From Mesodorylaimus sp. YZB2_4 (lineage: Eukaryota; Nematoda; Enoplea; Dorylaimida; Dorylaimidae), in NCBI GenBank assembly GCA_030248295.1, contig JASANH010000846.1, forward strand, positions 186,001 to 250,000: DNA of 64,000 bases. Reading direction: 5' to 3'. Shown piece by piece: positions 7,810-33,005 of this stretch (its first letter is position 1; every line of letters starts with the position of its first letter). Under the pieces are notes generated by a model. It was not told where the DNA came from and did not search any database. It worked only from the letters and a program-made list of their open reading frames with translations. A program made the position numbers and the translations under genes.

Positions 7810-10800
7810 ATGACCGAGCTTGAAGAGATGATTCAAGAAGCTTTGACTTTTGGCGATTTTGTGACGTTCTTCTGTGAAGAAAAGAGAGGATATATTTACA
7901 GCCATCTGTCCAGGTAAAGGAGTTCTGTCTTATCATACGGAAGTCTCTGGCATCTTTACGACTCATCCTAGCTCGGTGCATGCCGAATTGGTTGTGCAAA
8001 AAAACCAAGCTGGAGAGGCGAAGGCGCAGCACGCATCCAATGTCCATGGTAATCGAGCTTTTGGTAACTCGGAAATGCTCGTTTTCGAGTCGAGTGCTCT
8101 TTCAGCTCTTACTTTCCAAATTTGCGCTCCAAATCGGTACAAATCCAACAAAGCCTTATCTCTGTGCAAACAAGCCCTCGATCAGAACCCTACTGACTTG
8201 CAACTGCAATGGAAACATCTGGCGGCTCAAGTAAGACAACATACCTGTAGGTCTATCGAAGGACACTAAAGTCAGAAGAGAAGTTTTAGAAAGCGGCCGA
8301 ACAGGAAAATGAAGAAAATAACTTGGAGCAGGCCAGACGATTCGGAAAGAAGCTTATGTATGGACAAATCATTCAAGTAAGTGCATCATATTTAAACAAG
8401 ATTTTGACTTGTGACTGATGGCAGTGCTTACTTGCAGCTCAAGCACAAATTCACAAATAAGTTCATTCGAGTGAACACAAAACAGACGGCGGCCATCGAG
8501 ACCAGTAACATGTTGGTAAGTCGGTGCCTTATTCTGTATTGAGCCAGAGTTGAGGGTGCTATCGTGCTTCAGGTTGAATTAACACCATCCACATCCAAAA
8601 ACGCCTTCTTTCGGGTCATGCCACGTTATAAGGTCAAGACAGAGGGCGAAGTGGTAAGTGCAGCCGAACCGATGGCATATGTATCTATGCGTGTCGCATG
8701 GCGATTAACTTCGAGCAGGTGACCATCGGAGATCAAGTAGCTCTGGAGAGTGTAAAGTGCCCCGGCCAGTTTCTGCACTGCAGTCGAGACATCCTGAATG
8801 ACACGAGTCCCTATGCGGGAAGGTACGTGGACTAGGTTATCTTAGTCACCTGGGATGAAATTCAATATCACTATCGCTTAGCTACGAGATCAACCTGTCA
8901 GTCAGACCATCCGGGTTTACGGTTTATCGATTCAGTAAAGCCATTAACCGACAGAAAGAAAAGAATAAGATTTCAGTAAGTCCCGGTTTACAAGCCACGA
9001 AATCAGCTCTGCAAACTCTGGCTATAGGCTGGCGACTTCGTCCGGTTATACCACAAGGAACTGGAGGCATACCTTGTGGCCGAGCCCGTGTTTCGAAAAG
9101 ATTGGGGAGAAGAAAGTGAGCATTCATATTTTTAAATTTTAGAGCATTTAGCCGTTTTATGGTTCGTTCCAGCTATGAAGCACAATTACGTGGCTGGAAA
9201 ATTTCCAACGGAACTTTTTGACCAGCTGGTTCACTGTAAGAGAAACAGTCCCTCTGGCCTTTCTTTTTGATAGTTGCTCTGTTTTAGTGCACCTCCGAGT
9301 TCGTCCCGTTGACTTGGCAGTTCCCAAAACGCTAGAGCCATCAAGTTCGGCCGTCACATTCTGGCAACTCGAAAAGGAGAAATCCTTGATCGATGGCAGT
9401 GCTGTTGAATGGGAAGATCAATGCCGTTTGCGTCATGTTACCAGCCGCCTGTACCTCGTAGTTGACAATAACTTTCGAGTCGGCCTGAGCAACAATTCTG
9501 CCGACCCTCACACTGTGTTCCGGATTCATCCTGTGGTCAAGGTAAGCCTACTGTAATCCGAGAACATGATGCTTTTATGACTTTCAAGAACATGAAATTA
9601 CATTCTGCCATAATCATAGGGTCTGCAAGCCTTGGAGTCGGATTCTTATATTCGGCTTCAGCACGTGGTCAGTGGGCGATGGCTTCACGGAGATGGTGGT
9701 ATAGATTTGAACGGTTATATAAAAACGAGTGAATTATAATCTTCGTTAAGCGATAGCTTTTATTACAGTTTCGACCTTCGGAGCGGACAAACAACTTGGC
9801 CCTAGCGACTCCATGGAAACATTAAACTGGAGCACGGCGATGCTGAAAGATGTGAGTGCATTGAATCCTCTTCGATAAGGGACCAAGACCAGTGCTCACA
9901 TTGCAGATAAAAACGTCTGAAGCAATGAACTACGACGATGCATTCACCATGCAAAAAGTGGACGAAGAGATAGTCAATGCTGCCAACTATGTGGCTGGCT
10001 TCGTTCCATTCCTGCACCTACTTTTGAGAGATGCGAGTGCTAAGGTTCAGTCACACCTCGTACCAACTATTCGCTTTTTTCTTTGACATGAACTAATTTT
10101 AGAAAACTAAGGATGCTCTGGCGACACCGAGAGCAATGCTCAGAATAACAACAGTAATAGTCTTTTCTTCAAGCAATGCTGGATCGCAGGATTGCATTTT
10201 TATGCAGGCGCTCAACGAACTGACAGAATTCTTGTACATCGACGGCATTCACTCCAAATTTCGGCAAAAACTTCTTCGAAATTTCTTGGTATGCCAAGTA
10301 AGGTTTGCCTCTCTAAATACCGCAATCTTAAATAAGTCTTGCGTTGCAGGTACTTGATTTGATCATGGCATTCCTGAAGTGTCCCTTCGAAGGCGGAGAC
10401 GACACCGAGTATGCTGTTGTCCGTACACTTGCATATCTGTACCGCACAGTCGTTTTGTTGCAGTCCCTTTCTGCCGATACGCGCTAAATGCTACGATATG
10501 CTGGACAAATATCTGAAAGGCGACAGTCGCAAAAACGAGCTGTATCTGGCAAGACACGTTGAATTTTATATGAGGCAGATTACAGTTCCAGTATGTCACT
10601 GATTTTCTGCCTATGACCACTCTATTCACTAACATTCTAGGGCCCGATTGGTTGCACGGCAGTTGTGATGCTGACTGAAATGTTCCGCGATAATCAAAAA
10701 TTGATTGATCGTGTCACTAAAGATCATATGAAAATGTTCTGTGATTTTCTAACAGCTGAAAAGGTGCTTACAATTCTTTTTTAAACCCTGTTGGTCCAAA

Positions 10801-13800
10801 CCTACGCTACTTTTAGAATTATCGATACCTTGATCTCTTGATGGTCCTTTGCTGCTGTGATGGCTTGGCGTTGCCCGAGAACCAGAACTATATAGCCAAC
10901 GAGGTTCTGGTCAAATCTGCGCGAAACGATTCGGTATGAGCAACAGGTACGAGAAAAAAACGAGATGATCGGAGGTACTAATTTCTTTCAGCATTCTGTC
11001 TATTACACTGAACTTGGGAATGAAATTGGAAAAACGAAGAATATCGTTTACATATCCAGTAATAAGCAGGAATGGCAGCCACTCTATGAATTCGCTACAC
11101 AGGTAATGTACATTCATATATGATGGATATGCTTCTCATGAAGCAATCAGTAGTGTTGGACGTTGCACGGTGCAGTGGTACCTACTGTCGTTGGAGGACC
11201 GCCTTGTACAGTAATAGGAGTGGATATTCTTGTCTGAACCTATCTGATCAGAGGTTCAGGGAACCGGCCCGCCTCTCTAGTTCCTGTTGCCTTTAACCGT
11301 CCTCTGGCAAGTCCTAGTTGGTCCTAGGACGTGCCAAGGATTTTAACCAATGAAAAACTCACCAACGCACTCTTTAATAAATTCAGCCAAAGCAAAGGGT
11401 AACATTTAGAACTTGTGATCAGATTTTTAAATTTATAGAAGCAAGGAACGGATCAATACAAATTTTTTCTTCGGCAGTTGGACTTGTTCAGCTGCTTGTG
11501 CTTCGTAAGTCCAACTTGGGCAGGTACAGTAGTCCTCTCTGAGTCACGCCGTTTGACGTCTCGTTCAGGGCCGCAATGAAAATACAATCAGTATGATCAC
11601 ACTGGACCTGAAATACATGTGCTGGCAGGAGGCTTTCGTTTGTTTGTCCGATGATCGTATACCAGACGAGTTACGTGCACTGTACTGCAGGCTTATTCTG
11701 GGTATGTACGGTAGTTCGCATGTGGCTAACTAAAAGTAGTGTCCGAGCACCTACTTGATTCTGCATCTTTACTAGAACTGTTCGTGGACGTTAGAACAAA
11801 CTACTCTCTCTTGGATCGCCAGGATCTAGTATTTGATTACAAGGATGTGCCCCTGCCGGGTCAGACAAGAAGAATGCGAGAACACAGTGTTCTGGTATGT
11901 ACAGCGCCCGTCCTTTTCTGATAGCACTGCACTGACGATAACACACACTTTAGGAGGAGGCAGTACCACTGGCGTTTATCCGAGACCTAAAAACTTTCCT
12001 GAATGGGTTTCTGGACGCCAATGCCTCCATGACGGCATCCACCATTAGCCGAAACAAGCTGATCGAGCAAGTCTTAGTCCTGATCTATAACTTGGCCAAG
12101 TTCGGTTACTACGGAGACGCAGATGACATTAGACGACTTCTGGAGCCGTTGCTGCGGCTTGTGGACGGGAGAAATGATTTGCCGTTTCCGATCACCAATC
12201 TTGAAGGTGGGTAAGGTCTACTGTAGTGTAGGCGCATAGGAGTAGTGTGTTAGGTACCGCATAAAAGGGTAGAGTGCAGTGTGGTGATATGACTTTGGGC
12301 CACGTAAGGATGTCAGGGTGTTCATTTTCAGCTCATTCACGCGACATAGCACAAATGATCGAGGCCTACAGAACGACGAATCGGTTTCAACAAAACGTCC
12401 ACACTATTGCCTTGGTCAATGCAAAATATGGGTAGGTACCTGGCTGGTCCACACTCAACTCCAGCTAATAATGCCCCTTTTAGCGCTCTAAAAACGCTAG
12501 ACTTGTTTTTCAATTTGCGTTTTAACACAAGATTGACGGTAAGCGGCAAAGCTTCCAGTTGCCTGCAGTAGCATGGCAACTTTTTCAATTTTAGCGATTC
12601 CTAAGCGAATTCAAATTCACACTCACTGCAGACATAGACAAAAATAGGAACCCGCCTGATTTGGCTCCTTTTCTGTACTCGAATTTTTCAATCGATGAGA
12701 ATCCATCGTGAGTTTTTAAATTTTCACAGTTTTTTCGCGCTTGTTTTTCCAAAAATTCCGTTTTCCACGCAGGCTACATTTCAAAGCGGTGAAAACCATG
12801 TACGACATATTCCACGAATCGTCCTACTTCAAGGCCGAGTTTGTGGATGTGATGATGGTGAGTACGGTACTCGTGAGCAGTGAAGGGACCCTGGATTAAC
12901 CGAGCAAAAGCCAATTGCAGGACCTGTGCAATTATCAATACGACATCATTGTGACAACTGCCATGGCTCTGATAAATCGATATTATTCTGCTCACGAAAA
13001 TACCTTTTCCCTGGCTCAACAAACTCTGATCGTTGTCACAGAGAATTCGTGCACAGTTCAGTACAAAATAAGACAGCGATTGCCCTATTTGAAACTATTT
13101 TCGATGAATCTCAAGCTCCCGCCTGAAATCGTGACCAAGGTGAAAACTGTGCTGGAGGATTTCAGGGAGTAAGAACGACTTTGTCTACGTTTTCAATCAG
13201 TTGATGGAATCTGTGGTTTCAGCATGTGCTACTTGCCCGAAAGCAAAGACACAGCGCACAAGATCAACCAAGATATTTTGTACAACCATGGTGAGCGACA
13301 TGATTCTCACAAGTTTGAATAGCAAAACACAATTCTGCATTTTAGGTGTCTTAGTGGACGTGTTTGAGATTTTGTCCCAGAAACTTGATCCTGGTCTGTC
13401 CAGTCAATACGATGAAATGAAAGAAGTATTTCGCGCCAGTTTCGAATTGCTAATAGCCATGGCTAAAGATAATCCGACCGTGTCCTTGCACCTGTTTGAT
13501 CGATTGGATGACCTGCTCAAAGTGGATGTGGCCATAGACGAGTTGGCTGAACTGTACGCGCAGGTGAGACTTTGACGAGCAAGAAATCATGCTGTGTATT
13601 CGAGCAAACTAGGGACATTTCAGGTGTTTCGAGGCAACACTCTTTTGTGTCTTCGGGTGACCCAACAACAAATCGAAGACGCAGTATTCCTGCTGGCACG
13701 AACCCACAATCCGGTTCTGGTTCGGTTTCTCTATTGCCTTGTTCTGGTAGCAGAGCTGCCCCTGAAGCGCAATCAGAACATAGTGGTCAAAGCCTTGCTG

Positions 13801-16800
13801 CAACACCGCCGAAGTGTCAGCCCTTTGACTGACACAAGTAGAGAAGAGCGACTGAGGCTGCTTAGCTTAAACGAAACATTGAGCATAGAAAGCGCAAAAA
13901 CACAAATCTACTTGAGCAGCATTGTTCATTTGCTCTCCTGGTGTGCATTCGGAGGCAATCCGACCGTCGAGTCGATATGCCAGTGCATGATGACAGTGGA
14001 CGAACTGCTAAGCATCATGAACTTGCCTTGCCTCTGTGCCGGCCTGCGTTCCCCCTTCGTGCACATGTTTTACAACGTCTACATGACTTCGACATCAGAA
14101 ATCGCCACTGCCGAAATGAAAGATCTGCCTCAAGAACAGATCTGGAATTTTTTGTCTGGGGTGGCCAATGATCTTGCATTGTGTGTTCGAAAAGTGCATC
14201 CCCAAAAACCTCGAAAGATTGCCATTCTTCTGCGACACCGACCAAGGACTGTGCACTGCCGAAGAGACGATGAAGAACACGAGATGAAAGAACTGTTGCA
14301 CTATCTCTTCGATTCAGCCCTTCCCACAGTGTCGGCTTTCTTTAAGCAGCATTATGTCGAAACACCAAGGCCGCCATCAGGATCCCAATCGCGAGATGAC
14401 GATGTTTTGGACAAATTATGCAAGAACTTGAACGAGTTTGCACCTCTCGTGCATCCTTGCATCAGCCACGACCGACACTTGCAGGTACTCATGGCCACAT
14501 TTCAAAGCCTATCCAGTATTGGCCGAGGGTACGGTCTGAAAATGCCCGAAATCCTATTGCAAGGGCTGGCTGATCCTTTCGCCAAGATGAAGCTCCGCTA
14601 CAAGCAATACTACTCTGAAGAGGAAGATATCAACGAAAAACTGAGAATATTTTCGCGCAACATCAGCCAAGCTTATGGTGGGCCGAATACAGTCCGCCAG
14701 CAAATCAATTTTCCCCGTGACACGCTGTACAACAGCCTCGATAATGAGATAGCATTGCCTCTGGCAAAGGAGTTTCAAAGTCTCGTCGAATGTTTTGACA
14801 ACGAGGAGGAGCAAACTGCAGCTAAAAGATACGAAAATGCTACAAAAATTCTAAGACAATTGAAACAATCGATGAGTCTGACCAAACTGTCGGAAAGAAG
14901 AAAGCTGGACCAGGTAGCCCTGGATATCAAGTGTCTGAAAGTGCTGCGGGCACTAATTTATAACGAAATCGTCAAACTACCATCACCAAGCGATAAGAAC
15001 GCTTACGAGAAACAGTTGGCCGACGTGTGCAGCGTGCAAGAAGCCCTGGTGGATTTCGATCTCGTGCCCAGCGTTTTGCCACATTTGGTACGGCCAAGCG
15101 ACGAATTGGCCAAAGAGATCTTCGCTCTGTTGAGCGTCGTGCTATACAATGGCAATGCCCATGTCCAGACGAAGTTCATGGAGTACTTTCGACAAACCCG
15201 AGAAGAACGTTTCTTCTTCTGCGTCAACTCCCGCCTTCAGATATCGGCCAATGCCATCAAGGAACGGAGAACACTCATGTCCCAACACAAAGCTATGGTC
15301 AGTGAACAAATGGAAACATTGGGCTATTGGAAACCACTCCTGGACGCCTCGTCAGAGTCAAGATCTAGTTATACGCCAGACAGGAGTACAAGAGCAGCCC
15401 GCGATGCCAAAAAGGGGTTCAAGAAAGTCTTGGAGGCACCAGCATTGGTTCAGCAAGCGATCAAGTCAATGTGGCAAGGAACAGGAAATAACAAGGTCAA
15501 ACCCGAAGAACCAGAGGCTGTAGTTGAGGGAACAGTGAAGGTAAGCTGCGAGGTTGCTGACATATTTCTCTATGGCCGAACGAAGTCATCTCCGCAGTTC
15601 AGCCAGGTGAGGAAAGACTGGATGCTACGTACAGACTTTTGGCAGGGAGGGGCGAATGCCACAGAAACGGAATAGGGGATCAGATAGAGACGAAACAGAC
15701 AGAAAAACCATCATCAAATTATCATCTTTGTCTACCTGCCGCAAAAAATCAGATTTTTTCGTTCTACAGGCGAACAGAAAAAATAATAAATTTCGCAAAC
15801 CCGCTGTGGTCGTCAATGATCATGCAGCGAGTTCAAGTAACCCCGCGTTTGATGAAACGGGCGATCTTTTCGAATACAAGGACAACGAGTACTTGGGACT
15901 GGTCCTGCAGACCTTGGCCTTATTGTGCGATGGCAAATGTACCGAAGTTCAAAACTATCTTCGCGACCAGCACGACAACATTCGATCAGTGAACATTGTC
16001 AGCGAGACGGCAAGACTTTTGGAACTGCTCTACACTAATGTAAACCACAGGACAATCGATTTGACCACACAGGTTTTCAACACACTTTTCAAAATGGCAA
16101 TGGGAAACGCGAAGAATCAAGTGTGCATATTCGAGCAGAAATTGACCGACTATGTCAACTACATATTAAGAAATGACACCTTCCCTGGATGCACGACAAA
16201 ACAGATTTATTCACTAAAGTTGTCCATCGGAAAGTTGCTGAAAGAGATCATCGAAGAGAACTCGTAAGTAACCCTCAGGATTAATGACGATGAGTCCATC
16301 CCATCAGCGCCCTGCAGGACGTGCATGCAGCAGCCACAGCATCATGCCTCTTCAATAGTACTGAAGAATTAGGATCACATGTGGCAATCGAAAAGTGTAC
16401 AGTTGAGTCATGTTCATGTTCATGTTCATGTTTTACCACATCACCAAACGCTTATGCGCACTCGAGGGTGAAGGGACACATTTTACACGGAATGAGTCTT
16501 CCGATGAGCTTTGAACCAGCAGATGGATGCGTGAAGCTCAGGGCAAGTTAGTGCATCACATCCCGGTTTTATAATAGTCTTTTCACGGATAGATCACCAA
16601 TTGCCCCCCCCCCCCCGAACTCAAGCGGGAGCCAATTGGCAAGCTTTATGCAACGCTAAATTAGGATTCACCAACTCTATATCATCGAAGAAAACTCGTA
16701 CGTGCAGTAGTGCCGCTGTTAGCGAAAATAACTTTTGATGCAGGAGTAAGGTTAAGCAGCGGAGGTATATTATGTAGCACCTGTTCCGTGCCGGTCCCAG

Positions 16801-19314
16801 ACAATCGTTAGAGGAATCCGATTTTAGGGCCAGCTGTCACGAGAAACTGGTGGCAGCCGCCCTCAGCAATGAAGACTTAGCCAAAACGGTTGCTACTTGC
16901 CATCATTTTCTGACAACCTCGGTCCCACTTAGCGAACACGATTACCATCTCATAAGTGAAACTGGATTTCAATACAGCATAATTTTGTCACGCATAATCG
17001 ACTTGGTACCCATGCCAAGCGCCAATGGAGGCACCGATAACAGCACGTTCATCGATTCCACATCGTTCACAGAGACCACTGCTTGGAAATACTTTTTTGG
17101 GAACATTGATAAGATCGAGATTCTGAAAGACAACAGATTGCACAGGGCCTATTTCAGAGTCGTATCTCGCGACATCCTGCGGAAAACGGTGAAAGAACGT
17201 CTGAAATGGGAAGTGAACAGATCAAGTCCATCCAATAAGCTGCAAGATTTCATCAGCTGGTATGGCGATATCCGTCGAGATATTCGATACCAAAGGAGAA
17301 TCAACGCGTTTACACTGACGAGATTTTTGGTCAAGCACTGGCGAATCTTCAATTTGGTCTTGCTACTTTTGACTTTCGCCATAAATTTGGGCATCTTGGC
17401 CACATGGCGTGCTCCTGAATATGACGACATTTTCTTCAATTATTCTGTTGCAGATGGCCATTTTCTTGAAAAGCCTGATCCCGTTTTTGATGTGGTTTCT
17501 CAAGGTCTGTCTGAACCTCTGTGTCCCATATATACAAGACTAAAAGCACATATTTCCAGGGCTCGGTATCGCGCACAATGTCCTTGCTGTATGCATTTTT
17601 CTCAGTTATCTATTGTCACACAAGTTAGCATTTCCAACGCTTCGGCAAGTCATACGGTTTTATAAAAAGTAAGCGCTGCTCTAATCCTACTCGCAATGCG
17701 TGAGGAGAGATATTTTATGCTCAGGAAAAAGAAGCCTGACGGTCTCAGCGGAGAAGAAGGCAAGCAATTCTCGAGATTTGAAGTCCAATTTTTCAGTTTC
17801 ACCACTTTGTATTACATGGTAAGCTAAATTCACGTGGTTATGAAAACATAAGTTTCTAATCTCTCTCTCGCATACTGTAGGTATTTCTTGGCACATCTAT
17901 TCTTGGCACAACTGCATCCCCAGCCTTCTTCGCTTTCCATTTACTTCAAATAACCGACAATAATCAGATACTAGGTCGAATAATCAAGGCAGTTACCCAA
18001 AATGGTAAACGGATTTTTCCAATGCTTTTAGTTGAATAGCATTTTTGACATTATTGTAGGCCGTTCATTGCTGTGGGTAGTTTTCCTGTCGCTGATCATC
18101 TTCTATATTTTCGCCTTGATCGCATTCCTGTTCTTTCGGGACATCTTCGATGAGGACATCATGTGGTGCCACACGCTCTACGAATGCTTTGTCACCGTGA
18201 TAAGAGATGGATTAGTGCTGCAGTTGGCCCAAGTATGCTTCTGCATGGACCAACATGTTCAGACCCACATCGATTTTTCGGCTCTAGGTCTTCTATCTCA
18301 AGCCAACTAGCAATCATTATAATTTCCAAACGTACCAGTTGAAAGCAATTTACGACCTTACTTTTTTCGCTTTGATTACTACCATCGGCCTCAGCATTAT
18401 TCTTGGTATCATTGTGGATACCTTCTCGGAGTTAAGGAGTGCAAAAGTAAATCAAGGAGTTCCAATGTCACAGTTTCTATGTTATTACCCTGTTTAGTGG
18501 CAAATTGAGAATGACATGGAGAAGTTTTGTTTCGTTTGCGGTAACAGCTGTCACGATTTCGAACACCATGGTCACGTAAGTCTGAGCATTTTAAGAACTG
18601 TAGTTCTGATATCACTGACACTCTCTCTTGTGACCCAGGGTTTCACTCAACATGTGGAAGAAGAGCACAACATGTGGTCATACTTGTTATTTTTCATTTA
18701 CTTGGATGACACGCCGAAGACCAACATGAGCTCACTAGAACTTTACGTGTATAATAAAGTAAGATTCCCTATCTACCCAAAATCAATAGTGTGGATGGGC
18801 CAGTAAAACAGAAGTCTTAGCCAGGGGTGCCGTTTTGAGCAATCAAGACTAAGCGGATAAAAAAAGGAGTTGCACCTTTTCAGCTGAAGGAAGAAAAGAC
18901 AGACTTCTTCCCGTTAGGCAGAGCTCTGACGCTTAGCCAATGGGAGCAGGAGAACACAGATACGCGGTTGGAGATTTTGTTGGAGCAAGTGAACACTTTG
19001 GTCAACCGGATGAGACGAGATGTGAGTCGAGTATGTCCTGTGCATAAACTCGGTCGTCGTCCTGACCTCGAGTACTCGTCGTATTTTAGGATTTAGTGAA
19101 AGCACGCGAAGCTGAGCGTCTACGCCAACAAGAATGGGAAGAAACTTATGGAGTCAGAGAAAGGCCATCTGTAAAGCGACAGATTACTGTGGAAGCTGCA
19201 CCTGCACCTGCACCTGCAAGAAAGTCTCATTCTGATCTTGAACCTAAGATCGACACCGCGCACTTATCTGGGTTGTTCAGCAGGGGTGAGGAAAGGAAAA
19301 ACAATGGGGACTGA
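7810..19314 (+). CDS. IP3 receptor-like intracellular channel, paralog A (44 exons, 2,629 aa)
   Basis: ER cation-channel family that normally opens on IP3 and Ca2+. The ATG at 7810 begins MTELEEMIQ. Exons join in phase to 7,890 coding bases ending TGA; the largest exon is 13624-15540. N-terminal suppressor and MIR/beta-trefoil region: exons 7810-9851. Alpha-helical core: GDSRKNELYLA keeps the R568-K569 pair, and FRQKLLRNF keeps K508/R511 (mouse IP3R1 numbering), but Tyr567 is Ser and the TTGR loop is replaced by VRPV. C terminus: six-TM-type channel block (exons 17305-18446) with ITDNNQILGRIIKAVTQNG before TM5, the inner-helix end GIIVDTFSELRS, then a C2H2 linker (CFVC...QHVEEEHNMW). The selectivity filter GGGVGD is absent; the pore reads RDGLVLQLAQ-VFYLKP across the junction 18232/18288. 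Length is close to the usual ~2,700 aa. Family assignment is firm; IP3 gating and Ca2+ conduction are in doubt. Confidence 0.9.
11245..11350 (-). mobile_element. Internally deleted copy of a dispersed repeat, in IP3R-A intron 21
   Basis: On the minus strand it has both ends of the family seen at 25776-26095, 43955-44290 and 46140-46375: a CCTAGGACCAACTAGGAC-like start and a CGGTTCCCTGAAC end, with the middle missing. It sits in the longer-than-usual intron 11103-11438. Confidence 0.55.
16264..16827. other. Long IP3R-A intron with a degenerate copy of the preceding exon end
   Basis: This 564-base intron contains a TTCATG hexamer repeat (about 16409-16434), a C13 run, and at about 16680-16706 a near copy of the upstream exon end plus donor (ATCATCGAAGAAAACTC then GTACGT). 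Short blocks at its start and middle also match the equivalent intron of paralog B (30152-30557). Confidence 0.55.
18060..18446 (+). other. IP3R-A pore exons 39-40: TM5, pore loop without canonical filter, TM6
   Basis: Exon 18060-18232 encodes RSLLWVVFLSLIIFYIFAL (TM5), a short acidic luminal turn and CHTLYECFVTVIRDGLVLQLAQ. A 55-base intron follows (donor CAA|GTATGC, acceptor CTCTAG). Exon 18288-18446 continues VFYLKPTSNHYNF...IYDLTFFALITTIG and TM6 into DTFSELRSAK. Alignment by eye to vertebrate IP3R places VLQLAQ where GGGVGD should be. The large glycosylated luminal loop of vertebrates is also missing. Reading on through the intron gives a stop at 18308. Confidence 0.8.
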
Positions 19315-20095: not shown

Positions 20096-23000
20096 ATGAC
20101 AGAACTTGAAGAAGTCACCCACGAAGCATTATCTTTCGGCGATTTCGTGTGTTTCTTTTGTGAGGAGAAGCACGGGTATATCAACAGCCACTTGTCGAGG
20201 TGAGGGACATAAAGACACCAAGCGGCCTGCTCAGGTACCTCTCCTTTTTCAGTTCTGTTCACGCCGAGCTGGTGGTAAAGAATGGACAAAATGCGGATCC
20301 GAAGATTCAAACTGCATCCAATGTTCACGGTATGTGTTACCCCATAAGCAAATTTTCCTAGGGTAACCCGTCCCATTGCAGCGCTCACTTTCCAAATCTG
20401 CGTTCCAAACCGATACAAATCTAACAAGGCTCTCTGTCGTTGCAAGCAAAGTTTGGATCGCTGTCCATCCGACTTGGAACTACAATGGCAGTACCAAGCA
20501 GCTCAGGTAGACACTTATAAGACCGCCTAGCAGCGTCGGATACGTTAGATAAGAAATTCCAGAAAGTGGCGGAACAAGAAAACGAAGAAAATAGCTTGGA
20601 ACAGGCAAGACAGACGGGCAAGCAACTTTTGTACGGACAGATAATTCAGGTATGGCTTGCAGTGTCTGTTATCGGGATACAAATATGCGAGTACCTTCTT
20701 TGTCAGCTGAAACACAAGTTCACGAACAAATTCATTCGTGTGAACACGAAGCAGACAGCAGCTACCGAAACGAGTAATATGCTGGTGAGGAATAGTCAGT
20801 ACTTGTTGAGCTAACAAAAGGAAGACTCATGTGGTCCTAGATTGAACTTGCACAATCCACGTCCAAAAACGCATTTTTTCGAATCATGCCACGTTACAAA
20901 GTAAAGACAGAAGGCGAAGTGGTACGTTGCACATCACTGCACAGACCATATAACTTTCTGTACTCCAATTCTGATCAGGTGACTATTGGCGATCAAGTCT
21001 CTCTGGAAAGCGTAAAGTGCCCAGGTCAGTACTTGCATTGCAGCCGGGACAGAATACACGATCATAGCCCGTACGAGGGCAGGTGAGCAACCGTGCTTAA
21101 CCTGGTTATCACGTGCTTTAGTGGTGCCGATCTCTTATACTGTAGCTACGAGATCAACCTGTCCGTTAGGCCATCTGGGTTCACAATCTATCGGTTTAGT
21201 AAAGCTTTAGCCAACCGCCAGAAAGAAAAAAGCAAGATCTTGGTAACATAGCTTTATTTTGTACTCGACGCAAACATTTTGAGGCAGCCTGGTTTCAGGC
21301 GGGAGATTATGTTCGTTTGTATCACAAGGAATTAGAGGCGTACATTGTGGCTGAATCCGTGTTTCGAAAGGAGTGGGGGGAAGAAAGTAAGGCTGACATA
21401 CTTACTTGGCAAGCATTTTGGGGGCGGCTTGGTACATTTGAGAGCCCTCTTTTAGCATTGAAGAAATACTACGCGGCTGGGAAGTTTCCCACAGAACTGT
21501 CGGATCAACTAGTGCATTGTAAGATCAGTCCTTCAGCTTCGGCTCTTGACGCTTTTTGTGCAATGTTGTTGTCGCAGTGCATCTACGCGTGCGCCCAATG
21601 GACCTAGCCATCGCGAAAACCTTGGAGCCATCAAGCTCTGCCATCACATTTTGGCAACTCGAAAAGGAGAAATCTTTGATCGATGGCAGTGCTGTTGAAT
21701 GGGAAGATCAATGCCGTTTGCGTCACGTCACAAGCCGCCTGTACCTCGTAGTTGATGAAAATTTTCACGTCGGCCTAAGCAACAACGCTGCTGACCCCCG
21801 AACGGTGTTTCGAATCCACCCCGTGATCAAGGTGAGCCTACTGTGCACGTTAAGCACTGAAGGCTGTTGTAAATTATTGGTCTCACAGCCGAGCATCTTG
21901 TCATACAGGCGCTCCAAGCCCTAGAATCGGATTCGTACGTTCGGCTTCAACATGTAGTCAGTGGGCGATGGTTGCACGGAGACAGTGGTACACAATGAAT
22001 ATACCTTTGTTCAACATTTGAAAAAAGACATCAGTTTTAGCCGAGGCCTTCTTGGGGGATGATGAATTGGGCCCTAGCGATTCCATGGCAACATTGAATT
22101 GGAGCACAGCATTATTAAAAGAGGTAGTTAGGATAATTATTGAACCGACAAAGCAAAAAGCAGAACTTTTTCGATTGCAGGTAACAACAACTGAAACAAT
22201 GAACTACGATGACGCATTCAGCATACAAAAGGTGGATGAAGAGAAAGTTATCGATGCCAACTACGTGGCTGGGTTTGTTCCATTCCTTCATCTGCTTTTG
22301 AGAGACGCCAGCGCAAAGGCAAGTTTAACAGGGGGCGTGAGGACCAGTTTTATGTTTTTAAAATAGTTATTTTGGTGTTTCAGAGAGCTAAAGACGCACT
22401 GGCAAATCCTAGGGCGATGCTCAAGATCACTACAGTAAGCTGCACCTAAAGCTATGCATGCTCTGGCCCATATTGTATACTCTACATGTCTCAGGCACTC
22501 AACGAACTGACTGAATTCTTGTACATCGATGGTGTGCCCTCAAAGTTCCGACAAAAGCTTCTTCGAAACTTTCTGGTATGCCTTTGGTGTTTCTTGGCTT
22601 CCACCCCCACAAGATAAGCTAATATGTGCAGGTTCTTGATTTGGTCATGGCTTTCCTGAAGTGCCCATTCGAAGGAGAGGGTGGTATCGAGTATGTCATG
22701 CCAGATTCAAAGTCAGGAAACGTGCTGCAAGAACATTTCTATTTAGTCCCTTCCTCCCAATTCGGGCAAAATGCTACGATCTTCTTCACCAGTACTTGCA
22801 AGGCGATAGTCGGAAAAACGAACTTTATCTGGCCAAGCACGCAGAGTTTTACATGACTCAGATCAGTGTCCCGGTGTGTCCTCATACCATTGGTAGCTAT
22901 AGATCCTGCAACAAAAGTGTATCTTGCAGGGCCCTATTGGTTGTACGGCGGCAGTGATGCTGACCGAAATGTTCCGTGATAACAGAAAATTGATTGATCG

Positions 23001-26000
23001 CGTTACCAAAGCACATATCAAGACCTTCTGTGACCTGCTGACCACTGAAAAGGTGTCACAACAGTGTCCACACAGGGTCAGCCAAACCGAACGTTTATGG
23101 GTTTTAGAACTACCGATACCTTGATCTTCTGATGGTCGTCTGCTGGTGCAATGGGCTGGCTATTCCCGAAAATCAGAATTACATAGCGGAAGAAATCTTA
23201 GTCAAATCAGCGCAACAGAAGTTGGTACATGGTCGTAGTCATATTGTGAATGAGTCAGGACCCATTTGATAATATGTCTTTTTAGCAAGCCATTTATTAC
23301 ACCGACCTGGGGCAAGAAATTGGGAAGACTAAAAATGTGGCTTATATATCGACTGATAAAAGAGATTGGCAACCATTATTTGAGTTTGCAACGCAGGTAA
23401 GCCACCTATTGTACCTGCCTGGTAAGGTATTAGTATGCTGTGGAGACATGTTTGTTTTTCGAATATAGCGCGAGAAAGGCGATATTCCCGCGTAGTAGGT
23501 ACCGTATATTGTGGCGACACTATACTGTTTGTGGGTCGGGTCGGGCCGGTCTTCTCCAAACAATTGTTGCCACAATAATTGGAACAATTGTCCTTGAAAA
23601 TCTCCATATGGATCTGCGGAAAGTACAACTTGGAGTCCGTTAGCGGATCCATTACTATCCAATGAAATCCTCTTGAATCAATAGTGGATCCACTTGGACC
23701 AAGTGAACAAAGCATAGTCATTGTGATGCACTAAGCTGCAAATGCTCGCTCGGAAAGTGTATAGGCAACAACAAAAGACCAAGCGTAGATTTCGTGTGGA
23801 TACGCGGATCCTCAGAGGGCGTGCATTTTTTCTACTCCCAATATCCACATGGATATGCGGATCAGTCATCTGGGAAGGACAGCACAGACTACGCAAGACT
23901 AGCTTGCGTACTTGATGGTCACTAGCATTTCGGGTTTTGGCGCTTTTGTTCACTGTAAAGCTCTTGGAATCTGATTATTCTTGTTGACCAGTTGTAGCAC
24001 ACCCGAAACTTTGTTAGTGGAAAAGATTGATCAAAATCGCTCAGCACTGTCGGTCAGAGCACAATGCTTCGTTACTGCCGACTCCAAGGCCAAAACTGAT
24101 CACCAAGGGGACTGTTTTTCTCTGAAATTCCCTGACTTGTCTTCTTCATTGGGGAATTACAGTAGGAAGCATGGTGTCCCCGAAAAATCTATGATGTCTT
24201 CACGACATACCTTGATAGCGTCTCCCGAAACATCGAGGTGTCTCCACAACATAATAATACCTCTCTCCTGTCTGCAAGAAGGCCACAAAAGCACGCTGAA
24301 GTAGCAATGCTGCACTGACAAGAGCTGAAGCAAGCGCTGCATGAACCGAATAACCCAGTCTTTCTGGCCGCAACTTTCAGGAAAAGAAGGATGACAAGGA
24401 AGATAAAGACGAATCGCCGGCTGGTACTCGTATAGTCCAGGCTCGAAAAGTGCGCTGGTGGATGGTGTCTTGTCTCGTTGCCTCTTCGTGTTTTCTGTCT
24501 CTTCTGGCTTTCTCGTAGACTCGTAGAACCCACCTCTGCAGCAGCCTGATAGCCATACTATCCATCTTTCTTCTGCTTTTCACTTACCCCGCGTGATTTG
24601 CATGGGCCGCCCCGCCAGTGGTCACTTAGCAGGAAGTGCCTCCTTTATCATGGCTTATTGTTGATGGAAAATAATTGCGCTTACTGGATTTGCCCTTCTA
24701 GCAAAACGAAACGGACCATTACAAATTCTTTCTCCGACAACTGGATCTATTCAGCTGCTTGTGCTTCGTAAGTAATAATAAATAGCATGTCAGGCTTGCG
24801 GGTGCCCAGTGTCATGACATCGCAGCAGCCTCTGCACTTGTCTTTCAGGGACGCAATGAATACACGATCAATATGATTACTGTAGACTTGAAATATATGA
24901 GTTGGCAAGAAGCCTTCATTTGTTTCTCTGATGAACGTATCCCTGATGAGTTGAGGGCGGTGTTCTGCAGACTGGTACTCGGTACGGATGACCCTTTTTT
25001 GGTCAGACTAATGTACTGTATATACTGTATGTGCAATAAGAAACAAGAGCATATTTCAGAACTGTTTGTGGATGTTGGCACTAATTACTCTCTCCTGGAG
25101 CGCCAGGATCTGGTTTTCGACTACAAAGACATACCGTTGCCCGGCCAGATAAAACGAAGCCGGGAAAACAGTATACTGGTATAGTACCAATCGTTATGGC
25201 ATGGTACACTGTGTACATATGCTATTGCTTCAGGAACAAGCGATGCCATTGCCATTTATCCAAGAGCTAAAAGCGTACTTGAACAACTTTTTGGGCGCCA
25301 ATGCATCCATGACAGCATCAACCATCAGCCGAAACAAGCTGATCGAGCAAGTCTTGGTGCTGATCTATAACTTGGCCAAGTTCGGGTATTACGGGGACGC
25401 GGATGACATTAGGCGGCTTTTGGAACCGCTGCTGAGTCTGGTTGATGGCAGAAATGACCTGCCGTTTCCTGTCAAGAATAATGAAAGTACGTTTATTGCT
25501 TCTTGATTCAGAAATTCGGTTATTGAAACTGGTGCTTGAAGCTTCCTAATCAGCAAATAGAAGGGAAGTAAGAATGTACTGTACAAGAGGATATTCTTGC
25601 AAGCTACTGCCTGCGTCGTTTGAGTCACTCAAAAAGATAAGCTACAAGTTACCGCACCCCTTTTTCCGAGGTGAATGGTGCTGATAAGCTTCCATAAGCC
25701 GCAGGAAATGAATAAGGTCGATCACCTCTTGCCTAACATCCGACTTGCAGTCATGATTCACAGCATTTGAAATCCTTGAGCCGTCCTAGGGTGAACTAGG
25801 ACTACCTAGAGGAAAGTTCATGCCGCAGGAACGATCCCACGCAGTCAAAGACTTCCCATATTGTTTATGCCCCAAACCATGCAGGAGAACTCGCAATTTA
25901 TAGAGCAGCCGCACGTTTCAGCCGTCAGTGAGGGTGCCTAGGTGCAATTCCAAATAAGGAGCTCGGGACCTGTTACCGTCCGATACCTGCAAACCAAACC

Positions 26001-29000
26001 AGCCACGACCTCGAGCGAGATTTCGATCTTGCGTCAGCCTGACTTAATTGGGAGAGGCACCAGCTCCCTGACCAAGCACTGACAGGTGCGGATAAGATAT
26101 CCACGTCAATAAAATACACATTCGCATTTTCAGTTCACTCCCAAGATGTGGCCCAAATGATCGAATCGTATCGAAAGACGAAACGCTTTCAGCAGAATTT
26201 GCATACCACCGCTTTGGTCAATGCCAAATACGGGTAAGCGTTTTTGCGATTCACGACTAGCTCACAAAAAAGGATCACTTATTTCAGAGCGCTGAAGACA
26301 CTCGACCTGTTCTTCAACTTGCGCTTCAGCACAAGATTAGCAGTAAGTCGATTGAGTAGGAAGCAACTTCAAGGAAAACTAGCGAAGCCAATTTTTTTAG
26401 CGGTTTCTTAGCGAGTTTAAATACACGCTGTTTGCGGAGATGGACAAGAGTCGGAATCCACCAGATTTGGCTCCTTTCCTGTACTCGAATTTTTCACTCG
26501 ATGACAATCCATCGTAAGTATGTTGGGTCCTCGGAGTCTATGACCGAACCTAAGTCTTCCCGTCATGCAGCTTACATTTGAAAGCAGTAAAGACAATGGC
26601 CGACATATTTCATGAGTCCTCCTATTTCAAAGTCGAATTTGTAGATGTTATGATGGTGAGGAAGAGATTTCCAGTGACCCCTAGCCTAATCGATCATCGA
26701 TTCTAGGACCTGTGCAATTATCAATACGACGTCATTGTGACCACCGCCATGGCCCTGATCAATCGATACTATTCCGCCCATGAAAATAACTTTTCTTTGG
26801 CCCAACAAACTTTGTTCGTAATCACGGAGAATTCATGCGTTGTGCAAGCCAAGATTCGACAACGATTGCCAGTATTGAAACTCCTGTCAATGAACCACAA
26901 GCCAACGCGCGAGGTTGCCACCAAAGTGAAAAAAATACTGCAAGATTTCAAAGCGTAAGTTCGGTTTTGAGTAGATTTTCCAGCACACATGGGTTTTCTG
27001 TTCCAGGATGTGTTATGTTCCAGACAGCAGAGACGCGTCGCATAAAATCAATCAAGACATACTGTACAACCATGGTAAGATTTTTGTTTCCATTTCACAA
27101 CAGCATTTTGTATCTGTCCTCTTTGTGTATAGGTATCCTCACCGATATATTCGACATTTTGTCTCGAAAACTAGACCCAAGTTTGACTGAACAATACGAT
27201 GAGATGAAGGACGTATTTAGGGTCAGTTTTGAACTGCTGATTGCCATGGCCAAAGACAACCCAACTGCGTCTCAGCGCCTTTTCGATCGACTGGACGATC
27301 TTATCAAAGTTGAGGGCGCTGTGGATGAGCTAGCCGAGCTCTACGCGCAAGTAAGGCATTGACAGGATCTTAACAATGATTTCGAGGCGGTTGACGATGC
27401 GCTACCGTTTCTACTGTAGGTGTTTCGAGGCAACACTCTTTTGTGTCTTCGAGTGACACAACAACAAATCGAAGAAGCAGTATTCCTACTGGCACGAACC
27501 CACAATCCGGTTTTGGTTCGGTTTCTCTATTGCCTTGTTCTGGTGGGAGAGCTGCCTCTGAAGCGCAATCAGAACATAGTGGTCAAAGCCTTGCTGCAGC
27601 ACCGCCGAAGTGTCAGCCCGTTGACTGACACAAGTAGAGAAGAGCGACTGAAGTTGCTCAGTGCCGACGAAACACAAAGCCCTGAAAAAGCCAGAAAGCA
27701 GATTTATTTGAGCAGCATTGTTCAATTGCTTTCGTGGTGCGCATATGGAGATAACCGGACAGTCGAATCGATCTGTCAGTGTATGATGACAGTCGATGAA
27801 CTTCTCACAATCATGACATTGCCCAACTTGTGTCCCGGACTTCGTTCACCATTTGTCCACATGTTCTATCATATCTACATGACTTCAACATCCGAAATTG
27901 CAGTTGCAGAAATGAAAGATCTTCCTCAAGAGCAGATTTGGGAGTTCATGGCAAGTGTGGCCAAGGAACTGGATTCTTGCGTCCAAAATATCCAGAAGGA
28001 TACCCGTATGGCGGCTAGTCTCTTAAGACGCCGTCCCAGGGCTGTGCACCGGCAACGATCAGATGCAGAACACGAATTCAAAGAGTCAATGCACTATATT
28101 TTCGATTCAGCCCTTCCCACGGTATCGGCCTTCTTCAAGCAGCACTATGTCGAGCCATCTAGATCGCCTTCTGAATCGCAGTCGAGGGAGAGCAGCATCT
28201 TGGAGCAGCTGTGCCACGCGTTAAACAATTTCGCTCCGCTTACTTATCCGTGCATCACCCGTGATCGGCATTTGCAACTTCTTATATCGACTTTTCAAAG
28301 TTTGTCCAACGTTGGAAAACCATTCGGACTAAAGATGCCAGAAGTTCTAATGCAGGGCCTGCCAGATCCATTTGGTGAAATCAAACTTCGTTACAAACAG
28401 TACTACGCTGAGGAGGAAGAGGTCAATGAAAAATTACGCATCTTCTCAAAAAATGTGAGTCTAGGTTACGGTGGTCCGGACACGGTGCGACAGCAAATCA
28501 ACTTTCCACGTGACACACCGTACAACAGTCCTGAAGAAGAGATAGCACTGCCTTTAGGAAAGGAATTCCAGAGCCTGGTCTCGTGTTTTATTAAGGCCGA
28601 TGAACGACAAGGATCAAAGCGGTATGAGAATGTCGCCAAGATCCTACGACAGTTGAAACAATCGCTGAGTCTGACCAAACTGTCGGAAAGAAGAAAGCTG
28701 GACCAGGTAGCCCTGGATATCAAGTGTCTGAAAGTGCTGCGGGCACTAATTTATAACGAAATCGCCAAACTACCATCCCCAAGCGATAAGAACGCTTACG
28801 AGAAACAGTTGGCCGACGTGTGCAGCGTGCAAGAAGCCCTGGTGGATTTCGATCTCGTGCCCAGTGTTCTGCCACATTTGGTTCGGCCAAGCGACGAATT
28901 GGCCAAAGAGATCTTCGCTCTGTTGAGCGTCGTGCTATACAATGGCAATGCCCATGTCCAGACGAAGTTCATGGAGTACTTTCGACAGACCCGAGAAGAA

Positions 29001-32000
29001 AGCTTTTTCTTCTGTGTCAACTCACGCCTTCAAATATCGGCCAACGCCATTAAGGAAAGGAGGACGCTCATGTCCCAACACAAGGCCATGGTAAACGAAC
29101 TGATGGAAACTATGGGTTATTGGAAGCCGCTCATGGAGGCTACGTTGGCTTCGAAAAGACCCAGCATGGCGTCGAAGAAAAGTACAAAGTCATCAGGTGC
29201 GTTGGAGAAGACTTCAAAGAAAGCCTCGGGAGTGGTGGGCATACTGCAATATGCAATGAAGACCATGGTCGGAAACAAAGTCAGACCCGAAGATAGTGTG
29301 GGGACAAAGGTCAACAAAAAGGTAAGCAAAATGTTTCATTTTTGATCGGCGGTCAGTCAAGGAGACGAGACTTAAATCTTCAAGGTGGACGTACATTTTT
29401 TACCACTTTTTGAGCAATGTTAGCAACACGAAGAGCATAATCATCAAATTAGTATTTTCCATTTACGCCCAGAAAGAGCTCTCGCGATTAGACACAAAAT
29501 CAACTAATCATGACTGATTTCAGCCTAGAATAAACCCTGTGCCTTCACTGTCAACTAAACCCAAGGGGGACATACTCTAGAGAGATACAATGAAGTAAAC
29601 ATGGATATTACAATGGTGGATTTAAACAGAGAAACAAAACTTTGTTTTTTGTAGAACGAAGGTAAAAAGTTTTCAAATTCGCACCCATCGGCTGTAGTCG
29701 TTAGTGAACACCCACCAGCGAGCAAAGTAGTTTTCTTCGAGGATATGGGCGATCTGTTCGAGTACAAGGACAATGGTTATTTGGATTTGGTCCTGCACAC
29801 CTTGGCTTTAATGTGCGACGGCAAGTGCAGCGAGTTGCAAAACTATCTTCGTGACCAAGAGGACAATATTCGATCAGTAAACATCGTCAGTGAGACTGCC
29901 CGTCTCCTGGAATTGCTCTATTCCAACATCAATCACAGGACCATCGACTTAACCACGCAGTTATTCAACGCTCTTATCGAAGTAACCTTGGGCAATCAAA
30001 GGAACCAGGTGTGCATATTTGAGCAGAAGGTGACCGACTATGTCAACTACATATTGAGAAATGACACCTTCCCTGGATGCACGACAAAACAGATTTATTC
30101 ACTGAAGTTGTCCATCGGAAAGCTGCTGAAAGAGATTATCGAAGAGAACTCGTAAGTAACCCTTAGGAATACAGTATCTGACGATGAGCCCATCCCTTTA
30201 TTGTCGTGTTGAACGTGCGGGCAGCAGCCACAGCCTAGAAATGGTGCAATGAAGAATACTAGCAGACCGTGCGACCATTTACCAGCAGAGCAACTTTTAG
30301 TAAAACTTACTGAATTGGATTAAGGGACGAAGTTGATGTTTCGGATCTCGGTTAGTTTTGTCGTAATCTTCTCAAGGACAGTTCCCGTACCGCGATTATA
30401 GCCCTTTAATTAGCTAGACTAGCGAGACCCTCAGCAAGCTTTATGCAAGAGGAAGTGAGGGTGCGCCAACTCTAGTGTCCTAACTCAAAGTTTGGGTCCT
30501 TACGCCGTTGGTGCTGTAACTGTTGGATTATGCAATCGGCCAAGATTGCTTTTTCAGGGCTAATGGGCATGAGAAGCTAGTTGCCGCCGCTCTCAGCAAC
30601 GAAGACCTATCCAAAACCGTCACCACATCTCATCAGCTGCTGACGGCATCGGCGGGCCTCAATGCCTCTGACGAGCACCTCGTTACCGAAACCGGCTATC
30701 AATACAGCATGATCTTGGCGCGAATCATGGATCTGGTTCCAGTCTCCACTGCACACGGCGGCAACGGCGCCCACGACAGCAACACGTTTATTGACACTAC
30801 GTCATTCACTGAGACCGCGGCATGGAAATTCTTTTTCTGCAACATTGAAAAGATCGAGATTCTGAAAGACAACAGATTGCACAGGGCCTATTTCAGAGTC
30901 GTATCTCGTGACATCCTGCGAAAAACGGTGAAAGAACGTCTGAAATGGGAAGTGAACAGATCAAGTCCATCCAATAAGCTGCAAGATTTCATCAGCTGGT
31001 ACGGTGATATTCGTCGAGATATTCGATACCAAAGGAGAATTAACGCCTTCCGAGCGACTAGATTCTTGATCCAGCATTGGCGATTCCTGAACTTGGCTCT
31101 ACTGCTTTTGACTTTCGCCATCAATTTAGGAATCTTGGCCACATGGCGTGCTCCAGAATATGACGACAGCTCCTTTAACTACTCCGTGGCGGAAGGTCGG
31201 TTTTTCGAGAAGCCAGACCCCTTGTTTGATAAAGTGGCCCAAGGTGAGAGATGCCAAATCTGGTTGCTGGTGCTATTGGCTAACGCGTGGTCTCCTTCAG
31301 GGCTTGGAATAGCTCACAATGTCCTTGCCGTTTGCATTTTCCTCAGTTACGTTCTTTCTCATAAGTTGGCGTTCCCGACTATCCCCGCGGCTCTTCAGTG
31401 TTTAAAAAAGTAAGCTTTGGCACTCCTGATGCCGTAATAATCAATGTGAAGTTTGCCCAGATTACGCAGAAAAAAGAAACTTAACCAAGAATCAGATCCA
31501 ATCACCGCCAACGAAAGCAAGCAAATATCAAGGTTCGAGGTTCGTTTTTTCAGCTTCACCACGATCTACTACGCAGTGAGTGCATGTCGGAGTCCCCATC
31601 CATGTCTCGCACTAATCCGGATATGTTTTATTACAGGTGTTTCTTTGCACGTCTGTCCTGGGTACTGTCGTGTCACCCGCATTTTTTGCTTTTCACCTTC
31701 TGCAGATTACGGACAGCAATCAGATTCTGGGTCGTATTATCAAAGCAGTGACACAAAACGGTAAGCCTCTTCCAATATAGACGTCTGGACTTCTTGGGTT
31801 GCAGACTGTCATGGTAATTTTCAGGTCGTTCATTGCTGTGGGTGGTTTTCCTGTCGCTGATCATCTTCTATATTTTCGCCTTGATCGCATTCCTGTTCTT
31901 TCGGGACATCTTCGATGAGGACATCATGTGGTGCCACACGCTCTACGAATGCTTTGTCACCGTGATAAGAGATGGATTAGTGCTGCAGTTGGCCCAAGTA

Positions 32001-33005
32001 TGCTTCTGCATGGACCAACATGTTCAGACCCACATCGATTTTTCGGCTCTAGGTCTTCTATCTCAAGCCAACTAGCAATCATTATAATTTCCAAACGTAC
32101 CAGTTGAAAGCAATTTACGACCTTACTTTTTTCGCTTTGATCACTACCATCGGCCTCAGCATTATTCTTGGTATCATTGTGGATACCTTCTCGGAGTTGA
32201 GGAGTGCAAAAGTAAATCAAGGAGTTGAATTTCAACCGTTTCCTTCAGACCTGTTTATACACCATAATTCTGTTTAGTGGCAAATCGAGAATGATATGGA
32301 GAAGTTTTGTTTCATCTGTGGAAAAAGCTGCCACGACTTCGAGCATCACGGCCATGTGAGTCACTGGTCATTGGCTGACGGCGGGGTTCATTCAGGGATA
32401 GCAACAGCAGCTTCTTATCTCGCAGGGATTCACACACCATGTGGAAGAGGAGCATAACATGTGGGCGTATTTGTACTTCTTTATTTACCTGGATGGCACT
32501 CCCAAGAACAACCTGAGTTCGCTAGAGCTGTATGTGTACAACAAGGTGAGAGTGGATAGATTTCGTGGCAGGCAATCGCTGAATTAACTTTCTCTGTGTT
32601 AAGCTGGAAGAAGAGAAGATAGATTTCTTCCCACTTGGCAGGGCTCTGACCCTGAGTCTATGGGAGCAGGAAAATACAGACTCAAGGTTGGAAATTTTGT
32701 TAGAGCACGTGAACGCGCTGGTGAACAGGATGAAACGAGAAGTACGTTCACTATGTAGAATTTTTAAAGATGGACTAGACTCCCTTTTTGTATAGGACCT
32801 GCTGAAGGCGCGAGAAGCGGAACGCTTGCGTCAACAAGAATGGGAAGAGCTTCATGGGGTCCGAGATCGACCACCATCAGATAAGCACCATATGAGTGTG
32901 GATGCGAAAAGAGATTACCTGAATCACGGGTCTGTAATGGACACTGCCCGTTTATCAGACTTGTTCAACGAACAAAAGAAAAGCATGGACAACCAAAACC
33001 ATTAG
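20096..33005 (+). CDS. IP3 receptor-like intracellular channel, paralog B (44 exons, 2,628 aa)
   Basis: Tandem paralog of the gene at 7810-19314. Every one of its 44 exons has a counterpart with the same phase; only a few differ in length, by multiples of three. The ATG at 20096 begins MTELEEVTH and the TAG is at 33003-33005. The largest exon is 27420-29321. The same changes are present: VRPM in place of the TTGR loop (exon 21578-21831), GDSRKN keeping the Arg-Lys pair, and the identical filterless pore RDGLVLQLAQ-VFYLKP (exons 31825-31997 and 32053-32211). The C2H2 linker is CFICGKSCHDF...HVEEEHNMW. Introns are longer than in A: 23397-24701, 25487-26133, 29322-29654, 30152-30557. The donor of intron 14 is GC (AAG|GCAAGT at 22316-22324). 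Coding similarity is a mosaic of near-identical and diverged blocks. An intact frame over 2,600 codons argues against a pseudogene. Confidence 0.9.
23397..24701. other. 1.3-kb IP3R-B intron, probable insertion sequence
   Basis: The equivalent intron in A is 336 bases. This one holds three variants of a TGGATAYGCGGATC-like word (about 23607, 23798, 23850) and several GGATCC sites. Open frames inside have no recognisable motif. I see no transposase or reverse transcriptase. Confidence 0.5.
25776..26095 (+). mobile_element. Dispersed repeat copy in IP3R-B intron 25
   Basis: It matches 43955-44290 and, reversed, 46140-46375. Shared landmarks in order are CCTAGGG...CTAG, CCGCAGGAAC, CACGCAGTC, GCAGCCGCACGT, a CCAAACCAG/CCACGACCTCGA segment and a terminal CTCCCTGA. 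It has no coding capacity, so it is probably a non-autonomous element of about 330 bp. Its location explains why intron 25487-26133 is long. Confidence 0.6.
29322..30557. other. Two longer IP3R-B introns flanking exon 29655-30151
   Basis: Introns 29322-29654 and 30152-30557 contain no extra exon I can support. The second shares short blocks with paralog A's intron at 16264-16827 (for example GACGATGAG-CCATCCC, GCAGCAGCCACAGC and AGCAAGCTTTATGCAA-like words), so part of it descends from the ancestral intron. Confidence 0.5.
31825..32226 (+). other. IP3R-B pore segment, gene-converted with paralog A
   Basis: From about 31828 to 32226 the sequence differs from 18063-18461 at only three bases. 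The 55-base intron is identical, and so are 15 bases of the next intron; both sequences then diverge abruptly. Neighbouring introns are unalignable by eye. Confidence 0.85.

Follow-up and report, generated by a model that had tools for sequence, protein, structure and literature searches.

The window, a 64,000-nucleotide stretch of contig C58 (186001-250000) from the dorylaimid nematode Mesodorylaimus sp., contains two tandem forward-strand genes for large proteins related to IP3 receptors (IP3Rs), here named paralogs A and B (Table 1). The end of a ubiquitin carboxyl-terminal hydrolase (UCH) gene lies upstream of A. The window also holds a mitochondrial carrier exon and, together on one strand, exons for a SUEL lectin and a GPS/GAIN domain, which presumably belong to a latrophilin-like adhesion GPCR.

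Table 1. Features of the window, numbered from its first nucleotide.
Feature	Position	Strand	Basis or remark
UCH gene end	within about 777-1215	+	E 1.1e-9, peptide of an early model
Paralog A	7810-19314	+	gene models; 43 exons, ATG 7810, TGA 19312-19314
GDFVRLYHKELEAY in A	9031-9072	+	R241 kept, K249 to A; same in B at 21302
VHLRVRPVDL in A, at the RTTGR loop	9287-9316	+	R265 kept; T266 to V, T267 to R, G268 to P, R269 to V; weakly scored alignment
SKFRQKLLR in A	10253-10279	+	R504 to K; K508, R511 kept; weakly scored alignment
KGDSRKNE in A	10516-10539	+	Y567 to S; R568, K569 kept; weakly scored alignment
RIH_assoc exon of A	15770-16263	+	Pfam, alignment; holds Ca2+-sensor positions
Exon of A: S5, short luminal link, pore helix CHTLYECFVTVIRDGL, start of the replaced filter	18060-18232	+
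VLQLAQ codons of A, in place of the GGG(V/I)GD filter	18215-18232	+	sequence and alignment
Intron of A at the filter position	18233-18287	+	55 bases, GT..AG
Exon of A: VFYLKPTSNHYNF at its start, S6 inner helix	18288-18446	+	sequence and alignment
Linker zinc finger of A, CFVCG...FTQHVEEEHNMW	18498-18758	+	two exons, 18498-18575 and 18639-18758
Paralog B, tandem copy	20096-33005	+	gene models; 3' exons less settled than those of A
Pore exons of B	31825-31997 and 32053-32211	+	by analogy with A
Intron of B at the filter position	31998-32052
Gene-conversion tract	A 18060-18461, B 31825-32226	+	402 columns, 4 mismatches, intron included
Mitochondrial carrier exon	39359-39916	-	PF00153, E 1.4e-30
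SUEL lectin exon and GPS/GAIN exon	60216-62729	+

Paralog A is predicted to encode between 2,533 amino acids, in the 43-exon model obtained by conservation-guided splicing, and 2,632 amino acids in another automatic run. An AATAAA poly(A) signal follows its stop codon at 19553. Exon borders in the region from about 8.2 to 11.6 kb are uncertain, as are at least two small exons, and the 43-exon model omits open-reading stretches at about 9028-9100 and 10350-10408. All models are stop-free by construction, because the gene finder avoids stops. Long single exons are nevertheless open in both genes (13624-15540 in A, 639 codons; 27456-29318 in B, 621 codons). The pore exons of A were set by hand; automatic modelling placed the splice sites here wrongly, as the intron at this site, which was converted between the two copies, resembles conserved sequence.

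Pfam searches with spliced pieces of the A model revealed an N-terminal IP3R domain (Ins145_P3_rec, PF08709, E 1.8e-17), a RIH_assoc domain (E 4.1e-20) and an S5-P-S6 channel domain (Ion_trans, E 5.6e-9), the last of which is also recovered by alignment to IP3R3. A MIR domain (PF02815, E 1.2e-5) scores 25.8 bits, barely above the cut-off of 25.6, and RIH (PF01365, E 0.032) falls below its cut-off. No Pfam family matched within the 639-residue exon at 13624-15540. The zinc finger of A retains its C..C..H..H pattern. A 640-residue C-terminal query of A returned 51 distinct sequences from a structure database at E ≤0.001, all of them IP3Rs or RyRs. The best match is IP3R3 (E 2e-35) over a stretch that spans the pore, S6 and the zinc finger, with RyRs close behind from about 1e-30. 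With an approximate N-terminal query (nine residues wrong elsewhere), phmmer matched IP3R1 at E 3.7e-14 and the best RyR at E 0.047. These results support the first-pass annotation, which had described A as an IP3R-like protein.

Assignment of A to the RyRs was ruled out by this IP3R-type N-terminus (4e-14 versus 0.047) and by a length far below the roughly 5,000 amino acids of RyRs. In a five-row tree of the 128-column pore core, the branch of A carries about 5 changes per column and the fork leaves A unplaced. A genome-wide search for Ins145_P3_rec had pointed to the absence of this domain from A and B, since its three matches fell only in the two canonical receptor loci described below. The spliced A model does contain the domain, and A was probably missed through exon fragmentation. 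In the corresponding search for Ion_trans, neither A nor B appeared among the 137 matches listed, with 150 of 208 candidates scored.

In the pore of A, the luminal link between S5 and the pore helix is very short (FFRDIFDEDIMW). The first pore exon ends ...MWCHTLYECFVTVIRDGL VLQLAQ, the second encodes VFYLKPTSNHYNFQTYQLKAIYDLTFFALITTIGLSIILGIIVDTFSELRSAK, and S6 ends in IIVDTFSELRSAK. S5 and a conserved pore helix are therefore followed by VLQLAQ|VFYLKP where GGGVGD is expected, and then by S6. In the alignment this replacement loop stands opposite the GGGIGE and GGGVGD filters of IP3Rs, and it contains neither a glycine nor an acidic residue, so that A has no GGG(V/I)GD selectivity filter. 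A GG dipeptide is absent from all six frames of 18060-18446. The segment from the pore helix to S6 was also read unspliced and with 28 splice choices that are in-frame and stop-free and keep S6 (GT-AG, GC-AG or AT-AC introns of at least 30 bases). None of these 29 reads contains GG, and the unspliced read contains stops. Together with neighbouring introns of 51-55 bases, this result leads us to reject, on the genomic sequence, a hidden filter exon or an alternative splice among the choices listed. The coordinates, peptides and 55-base intron reported in the first-pass annotation match the sequence on re-reading. Its statements that the glycine filter is missing and that the intron leaves no room for a filter exon are borne out, and the alternative splice restoring a glycine run, which it had proposed to look for, is not found among these choices. 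In both A and B, though not in the canonical IP3R of this genome, the filter site is interrupted by an intron. The filter codons could have disappeared through the gain of this intron or through a shift of a splice border.

The same annotation had considered the rest of a 2,629-residue receptor to be intact. The length holds approximately, but both the luminal S5-P loop and a portion of the IP3 site have gone. IP3R3 has 55 residues (2397-2451) between the aligned stretches where A has 2, so that almost nothing is left of the luminal turret. In the N-terminal region, both copies have lost K249, which we take to be an IP3-site residue, using site numbering that is in part also our assumption. 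In a weakly scored alignment A and B have RVRPV or RVRPM in place of the RTTGR loop, with T267 replaced by R and R269 by V or M. According to passages of PMC9663519, IP3R1 holds the 4-phosphate of IP3 with T267, R269 and S274, the 5-phosphate with K508, R511, Y567 and K569, and the 1-phosphate with R504 and R568. In A and B the binding set is incomplete, as T267, R269, Y567 and R504 are changed (S274 lies outside the comparison), whereas the phosphate-1 and phosphate-5 contacts K508, R511, R568 and K569 are kept.

Positions of the Ca2+ sensor were compared by a correspondence of IP3R1 and IP3R3 numbering that we assume to be correct. On this basis E1978 is D in both copies, E2042 is K in A and E in B, and the position of T2654 holds T in A and N in B. 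At the gate of A, F2586 is replaced by L and I2590 by V. The reference residues for IP3R1, as given in parts of PMC9663519, are E1978, E2042, Q2045, N1981, N1971 and the main chain of T2654 for the sensor, F2586 and I2590 for the gate, and G2546-V2552 for the filter.

Excluding the pore tract, the alignment of A and B spans 9,175 bases and shows 74.6% identity. For a codon comparison, windows with less than 60% identity were dropped, which kept 1,682 of 2,382 aligned codons. The 1,591 codons outside the conversion tract give pS 0.636, pN 0.077 and dN/dS 0.058, a ratio that does not extend to the filter codons, since the models used were mis-spliced there. Across bins, pS ranges from 0.41 (14.6-15.6 kb) to above 0.75 locally within the N-terminal half. 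The ratio is approximate: pN is reduced by the exclusion of low-identity windows and pS by the conversion patches, and some pieces of the models are mis-spliced. Even so, the ratio is far below 1. Low dN/dS combined with high pS (0.64) indicates that selection has maintained both proteins; A and B are old duplicates under purifying selection.

Against this background of divergence, the pore stands out as the largest and freshest conversion tract seen in the pair, with a longest identical run of 297 bases. Smaller patches with identical runs of 23-104 bases occur at about 9362-9465, 13618-13855, 14873-15194, 16143-16275 and 17111-17301, compared with a background identity of about 75%. Together with the pore tract, these patches seem to reflect repeated gene conversion between A and B. 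Since conversion has homogenised the tract, the two pores count as one observation, and the pore of B provides no independent confirmation of the missing filter in A. The filterless pore may be a recent acquisition in one of the two genes.

The first-pass annotation had also proposed a search for a further, canonical IP3R gene, and one exists in the 145-Mb assembly. The assembly has 133 matches to the nematode cuticle collagen domain, as fits a nematode; a search for the arthropod-type cuticle family gave 0 matches, but it gave none in control genomes either and so carries little weight. A genome search with RIH_assoc identified four places: A, B and single loci on contigs C71 and C56. The C71 locus is an ordinary IP3R (C-terminus versus ITPR2, E 1.9e-149) with the filter GGGIGE, and the C56 locus is an ordinary RyR (E 7.5e-55 to RyR3) with the filter GGGIGD. 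The stretch of the canonical IP3R that matches the pore of A, CETLRMCILTSIRDGFMSGGGIGEVLRK, is intronless. In its filter, at about 3127-3110 on the minus strand of C71 (L016), E replaces the usual final D. Its IP3 site keeps K249, R265, T267, R269, R504, K508, R511, Y567 and R568; V stands in place of T266, K in place of G268 and R in place of K569, so that the RTTGR loop reads RVTKR. Two six-frame protein searches of the genome with exon pieces of A (nine and eight matches) returned only A, B and one weak match to the C71 receptor, and no third copy of the subfamily. The presence of one canonical IP3R and one RyR indicates that Ca2+ release is covered in this genome; passages of PMC7016793 name one IP3R (itr-1) and one RyR (unc-68) in C. 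elegans.

How might these proteins work? We regard A and B as a divergent IP3R subfamily that keeps the IP3R-type architecture (N-terminal IP3R domain, MIR, RIH_assoc, S5-P-S6 and zinc finger) but no longer has the glycine filter, the larger part of the luminal S5-P turret or the 4-phosphate contacts to IP3. These losses, the presence of a normal IP3R and RyR, and the low dN/dS argue that the proteins are kept, though not as IP3-gated Ca2+ channels; most likely, A and B would no longer serve in IP3-gated Ca2+ release. The reading that we prefer, with about even confidence, is that they are non-conducting IP3R-like proteins of the ER membrane, presumably tetrameric, which may act as a scaffold, a tether or a regulatory partner. 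The first-pass annotation had offered altered permeation, a non-conducting scaffold or a regulatory subunit, and had noted neither the conversion tract nor the altered IP3 pocket and turret. The changes at the IP3 site and the turret, combined with purifying selection, favor a non-conducting role, and pore-dead IP3R mutants and MCUb may be counted as precedents. Other observations weigh against it. Passages of PMC9663519 describe the IP3R1 filter as wide (7.5-10.7 Å), and parts of PMC7399828 describe IP3R/RyR filters as poorly discriminating, with one position tolerating a change from V to A; given filters this wide and tolerant, ions might get through even a loop that has no glycine. The conserved pore helix and S6 would fit a working pore equally well. 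The retained K508, R511, R568 and K569 also count against this reading, as does the fact that the canonical IP3R itself departs from RTTGR (RVTKR, with K569 changed to R).

A conducting pore of other selectivity is thus a serious rival, even if we consider it on the whole unlikely. The pore helix and the loop LVLQLAQVFYL could form a wide path with less or different selectivity, gated by Ca2+ or a ligand other than IP3. The conserved pore helix, S6 and zinc finger, the low dN/dS and the acidic residues of B (D and E) at the two Ca2+-sensor positions examined all agree with this idea, and passages of PMC3213138 call the CRC-VI proteins of Paramecium release channels despite their dissimilar filters. 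What speaks against it is a replacement loop devoid of glycine and acidic residues, the loss of the turret and the lysine at one sensor position of A. Moreover, the D2550A mutation of IP3R1 abolishes release according to parts of PMC6700175, and sections of PMC8301844 state that mutagenesis in the filter region impairs conductance in mammals. We give less credence to a dominant-negative subunit, in which A or B would join canonical IP3R tetramers and block or tune their current in the manner of MCUb; this idea overlaps with the regulatory version of our preferred reading. Co-assembly of this kind is possible, as A belongs to the same family, has a recognisable C-terminal region and has a precedent in MCUb (passages of PMC10107711). 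It is less favoured, because identities to the canonical IP3R of 29% over 275 C-terminal residues and 34% over the pore module are low for co-assembly.

That a normal filter is concealed in one or both copies, by a splice that went unrecognised, a chimeric assembly or a wrongly collapsed repeat, appears very unlikely. The 297 identical bases are a typical place for an assembler error, and the pore exons were drawn by hand from genomic sequence alone. On the other hand, the tract contains four mismatches and is bordered on both sides by diverged flanks, none of the 29 reads shows GG, the neighbouring introns measure 51-55 bases, and the two protein searches found no third copy. Least probable is that A and B are decaying pseudogenes. 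Several functional residues are lost, and the stop-free model is in part a product of the gene finder, but the long single exons are open, dN/dS is about 0.06 in the presence of much synonymous change, and a poly(A) signal follows the stop of A.

Returning to the non-conducting reading, we advance a broader proposal somewhat more tentatively: a natural animal IP3R subfamily may have given up conduction and IP3 gating and have been selected for a task independent of channel activity, gene conversion having made the pore exons of the tandem copies alike. Portions of PMC3213138 and PMC7399828 describe the filter as conserved among animal IP3Rs and RyRs, and portions of PMC8301844 do the same for insects. 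Titles, opening lines of abstracts and passages from the open-licence literature yielded no filterless animal IP3R. If the proposal is correct, A and B would be natural "pseudochannels", in which IP3R architecture functions without Ca2+ flux. A selected filterless pair beside a normal IP3R and RyR would provide a natural test of which IP3R functions depend on flux; until now this question has been addressed using pore-dead mutants (as described in parts of PMC6700175). The pair would also illustrate how filter, turret and part of the ligand site can disappear from an IP3R whose remaining parts are still constrained.

Comparison with known systems places A closest to the animal IP3Rs (ITPR1-3; ITR-1 in nematodes), with which it shares Ins145_P3_rec, MIR, RIH_assoc, Ion_trans, the zinc finger and a length of about 2,600 amino acids. 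In contrast to these receptors, A is without GGG(V/I)GD, has almost no turret and has replacements at the 4-phosphate contacts. Over 275 C-terminal residues A is 29% identical to the canonical IP3R of its own genome and 29-31% identical to IP3Rs, whereas that canonical receptor and IP3R2 share 57% over 331. Within the 128 columns of the pore module the identity is 34% to the own IP3R and 38% to IP3R2, which argues that the fold is kept and the filter replaced. The RyRs resemble A in the S5-P-S6 core, at about 30% identity, and in the shortness of the S5-P link, but their chains of about 5,000 amino acids are unlike A, and the RyR of this genome keeps GGGIGD.

Beyond the animal receptors, the CRC-VI channels of Paramecium are likewise IP3R/RyR homologs with practically no similarity in the filter, and excerpts of PMC3213138 show that its authors still call them release channels. 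They belong to a ciliate expansion and are likened to A by description only. The pore-dead mutants IP3R1 D2550A and IP3R2 GS3, which according to passages of PMC6700175 still support ER-mitochondria contacts without Ca2+ flux, are whole receptors without a working pore. They are made in the laboratory, whereas A and B are natural and are changed in the IP3 pocket as well. MCUb, a paralog of MCU that inhibits MCU (parts of PMC10107711), exemplifies an inhibitory paralog of a Ca2+-channel subunit, in a family unrelated to A and B.
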